Positions 38,844-46,385 of a stretch of DNA of 59,767 nt are shown piece after piece. Source of the stretch: Pyramidobacter sp. C12-8 (GTDB lineage: Bacteria > Synergistota > Synergistia > Synergistales > Dethiosulfovibrionaceae); the NCBI RefSeq assembly GCF_002007215.1, contig NZ_MUHX01000016.1, forward strand, positions 1 through 59,767, read 5' to 3'. The notes below the pieces were generated by a model, which was not told the DNA's origin, made no database searches, and worked only from the letters and a program-made list of their open reading frames with translations. Numbering within the stretch: position 1 is the stretch's first letter; each line of letters starts with the position of its first letter. Made by a program: the position numbers and the translations under genes.

Positions 38844-39422
38844 ATGCTGAACGCCATGTCGCTGACGGTGCTCCGTCAGTTCTTTATGCACTGCCTGACC
38901 CGTCCCTTCCCCGCCATGCGCATGCCCGATTCCATGAGCGGCGCGCTGCAGGCGGCGGCCGAGGGCAAAGTCGTTCTCAATCCCGCCGTGCCGCGTTGGG
39001 GGCGCTTCCGCGGGCGCCTGAATTACGACCGCGCCAAGTGCATCGGCTGCGGCATGTGCACCAAGGTCTGTCCGGCGCGCGCCATCGTCTTCGATCCCGA
39101 CACCGAAGGGCAGAAGCCCCGCAAGGTGATGCTGCACGGCGATCGCTGCTGTTTCTGCGCGCAGTGCAACGACGTCTGCCCGGTGTCGGCGCTGAGCATG
39201 ACGACCGATTTCGCCTTTGCCAGCTCCGGCGACCGCAAAACCGGTACGACCCGGAAGGACACAGGCACGGCGGCCCGCCTGCCGTTCCAGAAGGAATGGC
39301 TCGACCCCAAACCGGGCGAAGTGGAGGAGTTCCTGCCGCCGGAACTGCCCGAGGAGGCCCCCTCGGTTTCCGCAGAACCTCCGGCGCCTGCCGCGCAGCC
39401 CGCTGCGGTTGAAGGGGAATAA
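38844..39422 (+). CDS. mbhN: Mbh hydrogenase subunit N (NuoI-like, 2x[4Fe-4S])
   Basis: The 192-residue protein carries two ferredoxin motifs, CIGCGMCTKVCPA (C66, C69, C72, C76) and CCFCAQCNDVCPV (C102, C105, C108, C112, with an extra C103). It is the likely entry point for electrons from reduced ferredoxin. A Pro/Glu/Ala-rich tail of about 45 residues (from residue 148) is unusually long for this family. It is the last gene of the operon, before a strong terminator. Confidence 0.92.
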   Translation: MLNAMSLTVLRQFFMHCLTRPFPAMRMPDSMSGALQAAAEGKVVLNPAVPRWGRFRGRLNYDRAKCIGCGMCTKVCPARAIVFDPDTEGQKPRKVMLHGDRCCFCAQCNDVCPVSALSMTTDFAFASSGDRKTGTTRKDTGTAARLPFQKEWLDPKPGEVEEFLPPELPEEAPSVSAEPPAPAAQPAAVEGE

Positions 39423-39439
39423 GCGCGTTTCATGCGCGC

Positions 39440-39482
39440 GCAAAAAAATCGCCCGGTCTCGCGAAGACCGGGCGATTTTTTT
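39440..39482 (+). terminator. Terminator of the hydrogenase operon
   Basis: ATCGCCCGGTCT and AGACCGGGCGAT form a perfect stem around CGCGA (one nucleotide variable), with A7 before and T8 after. It may work in both directions. Confidence 0.9.
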
Positions 39483-39590
39483 TGCGCACTCCGTCCCTTT
39501 TTTACGCGGGCGCGTGAAAAATCCTTTTTGGTCACTTGATTCATTTTTTGCGAGTGTGTATCATAATAAAACGTTGCCCTGAAAAGAGCC

Positions 39591-39750
39591 ATACTATTCC
39601 TCAATGACAAGGCCAAACACAAGGGCGCTGCGAGGAAGATCCACGAAGCGAGCTGCGCGCCCCGCGCAGCGGTCGAGCTCCTTTTGAGTGACTGGACTTC
39701 CTCGCGGCGCCCGGCAAACCGTGGTGACGCTTTTTAGCAAAAAATAGTAT
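39591..39750 (+). repeat. Structured repeat with terminal inverted repeats, copy B
   Basis: The 160-bp element begins ATACTATTCCTCAATG and ends AAAAAATAGTAT. A 16-bp stem (39623-39638 with 39697-39712, 15 of 16) encloses a core (39639-39696). Arms match copy A at 29487-29645 in the same orientation while the core is reversed. Stem positions 4, 11 and 14 differ between copies, yet pairing is kept by matching changes on the other arm. Confidence 0.75.
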
Positions 39751-39860
39751 CGGGGCGTTTCCATGAGAAGGAGGCGGTCGGAAACCGATGGACCAACACG
39801 CTGACGGTATCCCCTTACGATTCGGCACACTAGCTCCGGCGGTTTTCGCTCGGCTCTGAC

Positions 39861-39916
39861 GTTCCTTTCGCGTCGGCTGCCGCCGCTGCCGGAACGCGAA
39901 AGGAGTGTTTTTTTTT
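39861..39916 (+). promoter_or_regulatory. mgtE leader hairpin that buries the ribosome site
   Basis: TCCTTTCGCGT (39863-39873) pairs perfectly with ACGCGAAAGGA (39894-39904), extendable by two G-U pairs. The 3' arm contains the AAAGGAG ribosome site of mgtE. Nine T residues (39908-39916) follow and overlap the TTG start codon. The structure looks like an intrinsic terminator or a translation-blocking hairpin, a plausible Mg2+-responsive switch. Confidence 0.65.
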
Positions 39917-41267
39917 GGAACGCAACAAACTTTTTGAGCAGATCGAGAACTGTATCGACCGGAAGCGCTTCCGCGAGGCCAAAGAGCTGCTCTCCGACAT
40001 GGAACCGATCGACATCGCCGAAGGGCTGGAGCGCGATCTGCCGCCGGCCCGCCTGGTATTTTATTTCCGCCTGCTGCCCAAAGATCTGGCCGTCGAGGTG
40101 TTCGAGCTGCTGGACATCGAGGAGCAGGAACGCTTTTTGCAGCACGCCACGGACGACGAAGTCAAAGAGATCATCGAGGAGATGTCCGACGACGACCGCA
40201 CGGAACTGTTCGACGAGCTGCCGGCGACCACGGTGAAGCGCCTGCTGCAGAAGCTGTCGCCCGAGGAACGAAAGCTGGCCAACACGCTGCTGGGCTATCC
40301 GCAGGACAGCGCCGGCCGCATCATGACGCCCGAGTACATCGACCTCAAGGCGCACATGACGGCCGAAGCGGCGCTCGTGCGCATCCGCCAGAAAGCGCGC
40401 AGCAAGGAGACCATCTACACGTGCTGCGTCACCGACGAGGGACGCCACCTGCTCGGCATGGTCGAGCTGGAGGACCTGATCCTCGCCGACCCGCAGACGG
40501 AAGTGCTCGACATCATGGACGGCGGCCCCGTCTCCGTGCCGACCACCGCCGACCAGGAAGAAGCCGCACAGATCATCTCCCGCTACGACCTGCACACGTT
40601 GCCGGTGGTGGACAAGGAAAACCGCCTGGTCGGAATTATCACCTTCGACGACATTCTCGACGTCGTCGAAGAGGAGGCTACGGAAGACTTCGAGCGCATG
40701 GCGGGCATCGAGCCGGTCGAGGAAGATTACCTCGACGCCGGGCTTTTCACCGTCGCGCGCAAGCGTTTCATCTGGCTGATCGTCTGCATCGTCGCCGAAG
40801 CGCTGACGTCGACGGTGCTCAAACATTACGCGCCGATCGTGCAGCACGTCGTTTCGTTGACTTTTTTCGTGCCGCTGCTGATCGGCACCGGCGGCAACGC
40901 CGGCACCCAGGCGGCGACGCTGATGATCCGCGGCATGACCGTGGGAGAGGTGCAGTGGCGCGACCTGGGGCGGATCATCCTGCGCGAGACGATGACCGGG
41001 CTTCTGCTCGGAAGCGCGCTGGGCCTGTTGGGCATGGCGCGGGCCTGGATGATCGGCACGGGAACCGCCGTGGCCTGGACGGTGGCGGCGGCGGTAACGC
41101 TGATCGTACTGCTGGGCAATCTGGCGGGGACGCTGCTGCCGCTGCTGGCCCGCGCCGTCAGGCTGGATCCGGCGATCATGTCCGGGCCGCTGATCACGAC
41201 GGTCGTCGACGTCTGCGGGCTGATCGTCTATTTCGAGCTCGCCGGCGTTTTTATCGGCCTGAGTTGA
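39915..41267 (+). CDS. mgtE: Magnesium transporter MgtE
   Basis: The 450-residue protein is a complete MgtE: superhelical N domain (1-125), two CBS domains (about 135-255; YTCCVTDEGRHLLGMVELEDL and HTLPVVDKENRLVGIITFDDILDV) and five membrane helices. It has PLLIGTGGNAGTQAATLMIRGM and DPAIMSGPLITTVVDVCGLIVYF, whose Asp lines the pore in the family. It imports Mg2+ and closes when Mg2+ binds the N and CBS domains. TTG 39915 is the only start consistent with a full N domain. A second mgtE follows. Confidence 0.93.
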   Translation: MERNKLFEQIENCIDRKRFREAKELLSDMEPIDIAEGLERDLPPARLVFYFRLLPKDLAVEVFELLDIEEQERFLQHATDDEVKEIIEEMSDDDRTELFDELPATTVKRLLQKLSPEERKLANTLLGYPQDSAGRIMTPEYIDLKAHMTAEAALVRIRQKARSKETIYTCCVTDEGRHLLGMVELEDLILADPQTEVLDIMDGGPVSVPTTADQEEAAQIISRYDLHTLPVVDKENRLVGIITFDDILDVVEEEATEDFERMAGIEPVEEDYLDAGLFTVARKRFIWLIVCIVAEALTSTVLKHYAPIVQHVVSLTFFVPLLIGTGGNAGTQAATLMIRGMTVGEVQWRDLGRIILRETMTGLLLGSALGLLGMARAWMIGTGTAVAWTVAAAVTLIVLLGNLAGTLLPLLARAVRLDPAIMSGPLITTVVDVCGLIVYFELAGVFIGLS

Positions 41268-41338: not shown

Positions 41339-42670
41339 ATGTCCGCCCGCATGGGATACAGTTCTCGTCTGAAGACGCTGCTGCAGCAGGGGCGCCTGGA
41401 CGAGGCCCGGCTGATGATCCGGGGCATGACGCCGGAAGTGCTGGAGGAGGAACTGCTGCGTCTGCCGCCGCGAAGCGGCCTGGCGCTGTGCAGCATTTTG
41501 AAACCGGCCCGTCTGGCCGTGCTGATCGAAGGCCTGTCGCGCCGCGAAAAACAGAAGCTGCTGAGCAGCGCTTCGATCCCCGAGCTGCGGGGGCTGTTCC
41601 TGTCGCTGCCGGAGCGTCTGCTGCCGGAGCTGCTGAACGCCCTGCCTTCGCGCCAAAAGCATCCGTTGCTGGAAAAACTGCCGAAGAACCTGCAAAAGCT
41701 TTTGCAGCCCAAGAAAGAGTGGCCGGAAGATTCCGTCGGCTACATCATGAGCGGCAACGGCGTGGTCCTGTCGCCGCGGGACACGGTGGCCGGAGCGCTG
41801 GACAAGATCCGGCGCGACGCGCCGGGCAAGGATCTGGTCTATCACTGCTTCGTCATCGACGGCGAGCGTTTCGCCGGCACGGCGGCGCTGGAAGACCTCG
41901 TTCTCGCCGCGCCGGAAGTGAAGGTCGAGCAGCTCACGGAAGAGGACTGCCACGCCGTGCCGCCCGAAATGGACCGCGCCGAGGCGGCGCGCATCATGTC
42001 GCGCTACGACGTGCAGGTGCTGCCGGTCGTGAAGGACGGGCGGCTCCTCGGCGCGCTGCCCTTCGACGACGTGCTCGACGTCATGGAAGACGAAAACACC
42101 GAGCTGTTCCACCACGCCGGCGGACTTTACGGCGACAACGACGAGGGCAGTCTGTGGGGCGAAGCGCTGCGGCGCTTCCCCTGCCTGCTGCTCTGTCTGG
42201 TGACGGGCATCCTCACCACGGGCATCATGGAAAACTACGAGGACATGCTCTCGCAGGTGCTGGCGCTCTCGTTCTTCGTGCCGCTGCTGATCGACACGGG
42301 CGGCAACGTGGGCGCGCAGATCTCGGTGCTGATCATCCGCTCGATGGGGCTGGGGCGTCTGGAAAGCAGCGTGCTGGGGCGGGTGCTGCTGCGCGAATTG
42401 GTCACGGCCCTGCTGCTGGGCGGCGCCATGGCCCTGCTGGCGGCGGGACGGTCGCTTTTCATCGGCGCGGGCGCGCAGGTCACGTTCGTGGTCGCCATGG
42501 CGATGATCTGCGTGGTCGTGGCGTCCGACCTGCTCGGCGCGCTCATGCCCTTCGTCGTCAAACGCCTCGGCTTCGACCCGGCGCTGATCTCCGGGCCGCT
42601 GCTGGCCACGATCGTCGACGTGCTGGGGCTGGCGCTGTACTTCGCCGTGGCGAGCATGGTGCTGCTGTAG
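41339..42670 (+). CDS. MgtE-family divalent cation transporter (paralog)
   Basis: The 443-residue protein has the same layout as the preceding MgtE: N domain, CBS pair (VYHCFVIDGERFAGTAALEDLVL and VQVLPVVKDGRLLGALPFDDVLDVMED) and five helices. It keeps PLLIDTGGNVGAQISVLIIRSM and DPALISGPLLATIVDVLGLALYF with the pore Asp. The N domain is shorter in acidic residues and diverged (GRLDEARLMIRGMTPEVL), so Mg2+ gating or ion preference may differ. It begins 72 nt after mgtE and likely shares the transcript. Confidence 0.88.
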   Translation: MSARMGYSSRLKTLLQQGRLDEARLMIRGMTPEVLEEELLRLPPRSGLALCSILKPARLAVLIEGLSRREKQKLLSSASIPELRGLFLSLPERLLPELLNALPSRQKHPLLEKLPKNLQKLLQPKKEWPEDSVGYIMSGNGVVLSPRDTVAGALDKIRRDAPGKDLVYHCFVIDGERFAGTAALEDLVLAAPEVKVEQLTEEDCHAVPPEMDRAEAARIMSRYDVQVLPVVKDGRLLGALPFDDVLDVMEDENTELFHHAGGLYGDNDEGSLWGEALRRFPCLLLCLVTGILTTGIMENYEDMLSQVLALSFFVPLLIDTGGNVGAQISVLIIRSMGLGRLESSVLGRVLLRELVTALLLGGAMALLAAGRSLFIGAGAQVTFVVAMAMICVVVASDLLGALMPFVVKRLGFDPALISGPLLATIVDVLGLALYFAVASMVLL

Positions 42671-46234: not shown

Positions 46235-46240
46235 AAAAGC

Positions 46241-46345
46241 AGGAACCGGGGGCGTCGGCGTATCCGGCTGAGAGGAGACGAAACGGTCTCGACCCTTGGA
46301 ACCTGATCCGGTTCATACCGGTGCAGGGAAGGTGCGGGTTTTCCC
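46241..46345 (+). promoter_or_regulatory. TPP riboswitch (THI element)
   Basis: The conserved GGCTGAGA (46266-46273) and ACCCTTGGAACCTGATCC (46312 region, beginning at 46292), followed by ACCGGTGCAGGGAAGG, match the thiamine pyrophosphate aptamer. It lies between a promoter and thiT. TPP binding should lower thiT expression; the downstream CCCGTCCCC may take part in the switch. Confidence 0.93.
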
Positions 46346-46385
46346 GTCCCCTGTAAATCTTTTGATTTTACGGGAGGTCTTTTTG

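Follow-up and report, generated by a model that had tools for sequence, protein, structure and literature searches.

The tandem mgtE genes of Pyramidobacter sp. C12-8 lie behind a leader that, with an estimated probability of about 0.6, senses Mg2+ through the ribosome, in the manner of MgtL and MgtQ, and thereby controls mgtE. Within the window, by which we mean the whole stretch of DNA that was analysed (59,767 nucleotides of contig NZ_MUHX01000016.1), a short ORF precedes a hairpin that buries the ribosome site of the first mgtE copy; the ORF is conserved and constrained at the peptide level, and ORFs of this type are enriched before mgtE. Most likely, the hairpin belongs to this wider conserved device, and its sensor is the ribosome translating an acidic and proline-containing leader peptide. 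The first-pass annotation of this DNA had pictured a metal-responsive attenuator at this site; its post-transcriptional control region, free of known aptamers and most plausibly responsive to Mg2+, stands. A new Mg2+-binding RNA as the sensor is not supported: the conserved part is a short upstream ORF that the annotation had overlooked, and it is conserved at the level of the peptide.

According to our model, ribosomes would translate the short ORF at 39788-39859 and, when Mg2+ is scarce, would be destabilised over its acidic and proline-containing start (MDQHADGIP), dropping off or lingering there; with ample Mg2+ they would translate it to its end, next to the hairpin. The position of the ribosome would then set the pairing of the leader stems, leaving the mgtE ribosome site, and in some species the transcript end, open or shut, with mgtE most likely opened at low Mg2+.

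The leader ORF and its conservation before mgtE

The leader ORF (39788-39859, + strand) comprises 23 codons and a TGA stop (MDQHADGIPLRFGTLAPAVFARL) that abuts the foot of the hairpin, and is led by its own ribosome site, AAGGAGG, at 39768-39774 (+ strand), 13 nt 5' of the ATG. Homologous ORFs, with ribosome sites of their own, precede mgtE in relatives, including 6/6 congeners, and AAGGAG is retained in all six of these. Congener peptides begin MDQHADGIPLR (the window sequence), MDEHSDGIPLR or MDGYSDGVPLR, and the codon differences between them are mostly silent early in the ORF and free later. Peptides from other genera (e.g. MDQGAVPLGP, MDHDSVPLYRP, MESGSVPLC, MDSGLVPLS, MEEGASPLE, MDSGAQPLS, MDAGPS and MEDPSS) show the same pattern in their first ten residues, namely an acid at residue 2, often a proline at 5, 7 or 9, and almost no basic residues, followed by a remainder that drifts. 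The window thus holds a short ORF, led by a ribosome site, in the leader of a Mg2+ transporter gene, with acidic and proline residues in its first ten codons and conservation at the peptide level. We obtained dN/dS values of 0.33 for codons 2-10 and 0.73 for later codons from groups chosen by peptide prefix, a choice that biases the N-terminal value downwards and from which the congeneric codon comparison is free. This N-terminal constraint and drifting remainder argue that the start of the peptide is under selection and the rest hardly so, as expected of a cis-acting leader peptide. Among 33 distinct peptides that were selected for their acidic and proline-containing look, an acid occupies residue 2 in 85% (vs 7% of background uORFs) and a proline residue 7 in 42% (vs 4%); these peptides have no basic residue at positions 2-6, and their mean charge is basic after residue 10.

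We then counted such ORFs across Synergistota, using 89 mgtE leaders, which are those fetched rather than the whole phylum, and a background of 134 genes whose upstream regions are free, taken from three Synergistota genomes as 20 stretches of 20 kb. A fixed rule, which asks for 5 nt or more of ribosome-site match, an acidic residue 2 and, close by, either a proline or another acid, was satisfied by 34/89 mgtE leaders vs 3/134 background genes (p 7.6e-13, uncorrected for kinship), and a looser rule by 57/89 vs 17/134; both rules were defined after the data had been seen, and genomes of the same genus are non-independent. The two groups also differed when uORFs were picked blind to their peptide, by taking the one with the strongest ribosome site upstream of every gene, with an acid at residue 2 in 34/53 mgtE uORFs vs 3/29 in the background, no basic residue at 2-6 in 46/53 vs 12/29, and a proline at 5-9 in 32/53 vs 9/29. 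The search for leader conservation in Synergistota that the first-pass annotation had proposed brought out an acidic leader ORF in 22 of the 35 genera sampled, that is, the 24/35 given by the looser rule minus g7 and g60, whose ORFs we take, by eye, to be tails of unrelated upstream genes. Against our reading, the ORF is by our count missing in the other 13 genera sampled; genus g5 has it in 0/13 leaders, and 3/7 first-copy leaders of genus g2 are without it. Rows L028 and L150 (contig ends), L193 and L194 (not entered) and L299 (short upstream region) were left out.

Further upstream, a consensus scan placed a probable promoter, TTGATT-17-TATCAT, at 39536-39564 (+ strand; 9/12 matches), at a score for which two promoter-like sites were found in 8 kb vs 1.3 expected by chance; in congener G003 the same promoter lies much closer to the uORF. 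Between promoter and leader ORF sits a repeat of ~160 nt (39591-39750, no strand assigned) with inverted termini (ATACTATT...AATAGTAT), which has 43 matches in its own genome; two congeners have 41 and 43 matches to it, and two others have none. It is missing at the mgtE site in G003 and G004, and G001 carries a different insert there; by this comparison of sequences, the repeat is outside the conserved device.

The hairpin over the mgtE ribosome site and its alternative stems

Both genes downstream match the Pfam MgtE domain, in line with the first-pass reading of a control region ahead of two tandem mgtE genes: the first copy (39915-41267, + strand) with MgtE_N, CBS and MgtE domains, and the second (41339-42670, + strand) with CBS and MgtE domains. 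The TTG start of the first copy (39915-39917) is credible: the annotation had named as a possible refutation a conserved start codon further downstream that is served by a separate ribosome site, and there is none; at the equivalent place, TTG follows a run of 8 T in three congeners and is ATG in two. The structural description given in that annotation was confirmed. A perfect stem of 11 bp, read directly from the sequence, joins 39863-39873 (TCCTTTCGCGT) to 39894-39904 (ACGCGAAAGGA); its full fold, hereafter stem 3:4, spans 39858-39909 (+ strand) at -30.9 kcal/mol, with a z of -5.4 against dinucleotide shuffles, 0/200 of which were equally stable. The mgtE ribosome site, AAGGAG at 39900-39905 (+ strand), sits within the 3' arm and is predicted by folding to have an unpaired probability near 0, its last base excepted. 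A tract of nine T follows (39908-39916, + strand), and the TTG start overlaps it.

With its GC-rich stem and the U tract behind it, the hairpin of the window has the form of an intrinsic terminator or attenuator, and the annotation had called it terminator-like. The hairpin is present in 5/6 congeners (G000, G138, G001, G003 and G004), so that its absence from relatives, also offered as a refutation, applies only to G002, which keeps the leader ORF and has lost the hairpin (z -0.4). The T tract is less constant, with 9, 8, 8, 8, 4 and 0 T across the six congeners, i.e. it is terminator-like in four and lost in two, and it is absent from other genera of the same design: in G006, which we take to be Jonquetella-like, and in Dethiosulfovibrio-like genomes, hairpins bury the ribosome site with no T tract. 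In two other genera, 5/5 leaders tested bury the ribosome site in a hairpin comparable to that of the window (z -1.4 to -2.8). The lack of conservation of the T tract led us to reject an intrinsic terminator as the main device, and hiding of the ribosome site is the better supported role of the hairpin; in the four T-rich congeners, termination may act on top of it. Over the wider set, the openness of the mgtE ribosome site has a median of 0.21 in leaders with the ORF (n=46) vs 0.33 in the background (n=134; p 0.006), and of 0.34 in those without it (n=36), which are not more buried than the background, in a comparison where the sorter wrongly placed L014, L026, L179 and L188 among those without and selected L018 and L124 via a ribosomal-protein-like tail.

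Stems that could undo the hairpin by pairing with the ORF region are clear in two relatives, L017 and L024, which have a clean attenuator consisting of stems 1:2 (-15.1 kcal/mol), 2:3 (-19.3 and -17.8, respectively) and 3:4, the last of these a terminator (-20.7 and -21.2) that runs out into a U tail. The first arm covers codons 6-8, the D-G-P site. When a ribosome-sized block was placed on these leaders in silico, a block at codon 7 gave 2:3, a block at the stop gave 3:4, and no ribosome gave 1:2 together with 3:4; a block at codon 5 gave 2:3 in L017 and left L024 in 3:4. On these folds, expression of mgtE in the two relatives is predicted to be ON at low Mg2+.

The same set of stems can be drawn by folding for the window, with a predicted stem 1:2 in which the leader ORF folds on itself (39770-39857, + strand; -33.9 kcal/mol for 39766-39859) and a predicted alternative stem 2:3 (39848-39884, + strand; -17.1 kcal/mol; -15.9 in G003 and -7.7 in G004) that is exclusive with the hairpin. 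Here, the hairpin is clear and 3:4 is dominant, winning at equilibrium; that it is far stabler than 2:3, and that G002 does without a hairpin, both count against our reading. With a modelled ribosome at codon 8 or 9, the mgtE ribosome site stays buried, and with one at the stop it is partly opened, so that a naive reading of these folds would turn mgtE ON once the ORF is finished, opposite in sign to the direction that we favour. Since only a ribosome at the stop keeps 3:4 from winning, we infer the direction in the window from its relatives and from the analogy with MgtL and MgtQ, assuming a kinetic switch.

The partial opening seen with a ribosome at the stop is also what plain translational coupling would give, in which a ribosome that has finished the leader ORF would unfold the hairpin at the stop codon and begin again at mgtE; Mg2+ would then not be sensed, and the acidic start would be incidental. 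The place of the stop at the hairpin foot suits such coupling, as does the distance of 48-63 nt from ORF stop to mgtE start in 11/11 leaders of three genera. However, coupling leaves unexplained why a start that is acidic, proline-containing and free of basic residues is conserved ahead of a drifting C-terminus, why some leader ORFs end 100-200 nt before mgtE, and why the same type of peptide occurs before M-box-regulated genes (see below); we regard it as unlikely, though as the most probable of the rival accounts.

By eye, a hairpin resembling CCCGRCGCC-CGYCGGG was additionally seen between leader ORF and mgtE in L013, L018, L025, L124, L129, L135 and L139, in which a GGCGYCG-like stretch right after the ORF could pair with the 5' arm of the hairpin.

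Comparison with known Mg2+-responsive leaders

The M-box (RF00380) controls genes of the mgtE type, yet no match at gathering score was found in the window leader or in any of the 57 Synergistota loci scanned with Rfam, nor was yybP-ykoY found at gathering score in the window leader. A permissive scan of 39400-40000 likewise returned neither, in agreement with the first-pass annotation, which had recognised no such aptamer upstream; the apparent Thr_leader and other matches of that scan were rejected, as they score well below their cut-offs and correspond to an upstream bidirectional terminator. The 57 Synergistota loci gave no other riboswitch at their mgtE leaders either. Elsewhere in the window, the Rfam scan located a TPP riboswitch at 46238-46347 (+ strand). 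A new aptamer for Mg2+ or another metal, with the RNA itself as ion sensor and the hairpin as its expression platform, would suit a gene for a Mg2+ channel and a hairpin with a T tract of that appearance; we consider it improbable, however, given that no Rfam riboswitch lies in the window leader, no M-box in the Synergistota loci, and that across genera it is the peptide pattern that is kept, with synonymous change, and not the RNA sequence.

Leader peptides that sense Mg2+ through the ribosome offer a closer comparison. In E. coli MgtL, low Mg2+ causes ribosomes to drop off at an EPDP motif, for which the acidic residues are needed, changes of Glu2 and Asp4 abolishing the effect; some early di-acid sequences are EttA-independent, and di-acids alone are insufficient (PMC11282234). 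The mgtE leaders resemble mgtL-mgtA in a methionine-acid start, acidic and proline codons, a basic C-terminus, a Mg2+ importer as target and, among several relatives, a Pro-Leu at about residues 7-8, and differ in that control of mgtA works by Rho-dependent termination, that the window peptide has its proline at residue 9 and two early acids, and that the transporter is of another family (PMC11282234). With two acids and one proline in residues 2-9, the window peptide is weaker than EPDP. Read from its genome, E. coli MgtL shares M1, D4, P7, L8 and R10 with MDHDSVPLYRP of L009, a common P7-L8-x-R10 register that may be convergence.

The arrangement in the window is also similar to that of Salmonella mgtQ, an ORF of 8 codons in which Asp2 and Glu5 act through alternative stems 1:2, 2:3 and 3:4 to free the mgtB ribosome site, which is buried in 3:4 (PMC8092293). 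Common to both are a short ORF led by a ribosome site, early acids, the ribosome site of a Mg2+ transporter gene within the 3:4 hairpin, and, by prediction, the set of stems. The mgtQ ORF, by contrast, lies within an operon and before a gene for a P-type ATPase (PMC8092293), and the ORF of the window has 23 codons and lies in a 5' leader, before an unrelated MgtE channel and in another phylum. In corL-corA, efficient translation of a uORF represses a Mg2+ transporter, as our reading would require, but the transporter is of another family, and corL, with a single proline, may lean less on proline than mgtL (PMC11552253). The open-access literature that we searched contained no report of a leader peptide before mgtE, apart from work on mycobacterial M-box uORFs.

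In that work, uORF2 of an M. tuberculosis M-box leader has a conserved N-terminus with Pro7, and it has been suggested that such a uORF functions as a peptide (PMC12810186). By the same token, the product of the Synergistota ORF could be a small protein with a function of its own, for instance in regulating MgtE, and not a leader peptide that acts in cis; the N-terminal conservation of the ORF would agree with this. We doubt it strongly, however, as the ORFs range from 14 to more than 50 residues in length among relatives, their C-terminal part is nearly unconstrained, and their net charge turns basic after residue 10. Attenuation by amino-acid supply or polyproline, in which the ORF would sense charged tRNA-Pro/Asp or EF-P activity and not Mg2+, could draw on the attenuator stems that accompany the leader ORF in two relatives and on the enrichment of proline at residues 5, 7, 9 and 10 (with Pro-Pro at 9-10 in some leaders), but is the least probable account, since there is no run of a single codon, the window peptide has one proline in its first 16 residues, acidity and not proline is the most constant feature, and the target is a Mg2+ channel. 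Should ribosome-based sensing of Mg2+ hold, bacteria far from Enterobacteriaceae would use their own ribosomes to gauge Mg2+ for MgtE, which would explain how Mg2+ uptake may be controlled where the M-box is absent.

Leader ORFs in other phyla and beside the M-box

Acidic leader ORFs were also enriched in a sample of a clostridial-type phylum (that of the Clostridiales genome L067), where the fixed rule was satisfied by 9/48 mgtE leaders vs 1/116 others (p 6.9e-5), in a count that entered several loci with MgtE_N ~180 residues in as mgtE, so that their leader ORFs (e.g. MDPDGSN, L294) went uncounted. Peptides found there include MDGDASSPYP, MESDDDYL, MDPSPLPSS and MESEEGDYY. Tentatively, and at somewhat less than even odds, acidic and proline-containing leader peptides may be an ancient and widespread Mg2+ sensor that is not peculiar to enterobacteria, controlling mgtE in much of Synergistota as well as within several other phyla, in parts of them, and in places stacked behind an M-box. 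If so, they would form a natural set of leader peptides in which to find early nascent chains that break ribosomes at low Mg2+.

An M-box was present in 9/20 scanned loci, which had been picked for acidic leader ORFs. In a separate set, four close Halanaerobiales mgtE genes, at 4/20 places, have the peptides MANDDDD, MVNDDDV, MALDDDQ and MVADDDQ. In Halonatronum (L087), M-box and acidic leader ORF occur together, and we noted both in one leader of the mgtE type in L294, L304, L307, L308, L317, L321, L323, L343 and L067 as well. These loci apparently have two Mg2+ sensors in a row, and, if this is true, one transcript would read Mg2+ twice, through an RNA aptamer and through the translating ribosome; the apparent presence of two unrelated sensors in one leader of some clostridial-type genomes is directly testable. 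In L294, L307 and L321, all of which have an M-box, the ORFs MDPDG, MDGNP and MDTDPDG precede genes with MgtE_N ~180 residues in, which are perhaps the MgtE-like partner of NrmT transporters (PMC4072509).

Loci from Cyanobacteria and Nitrospirae that we examined by eye showed no acidic or proline-containing ORFs of such a look. In a sample of 30 Actinomycetota loci, the strict rule was satisfied by 0/21 mgtE-like genes and 0/9 others, and we make no claim for the device in that phylum. Four of its loci (L099, L102, L104 and L108) carry a leader ORF of the form MNSDSS or MSSDSSxxRS, some 190-220 nt upstream of the mgtE match, whose nucleotides are well conserved (GACAGTTC...ATCGATC), and this site is perhaps an RNA element too.
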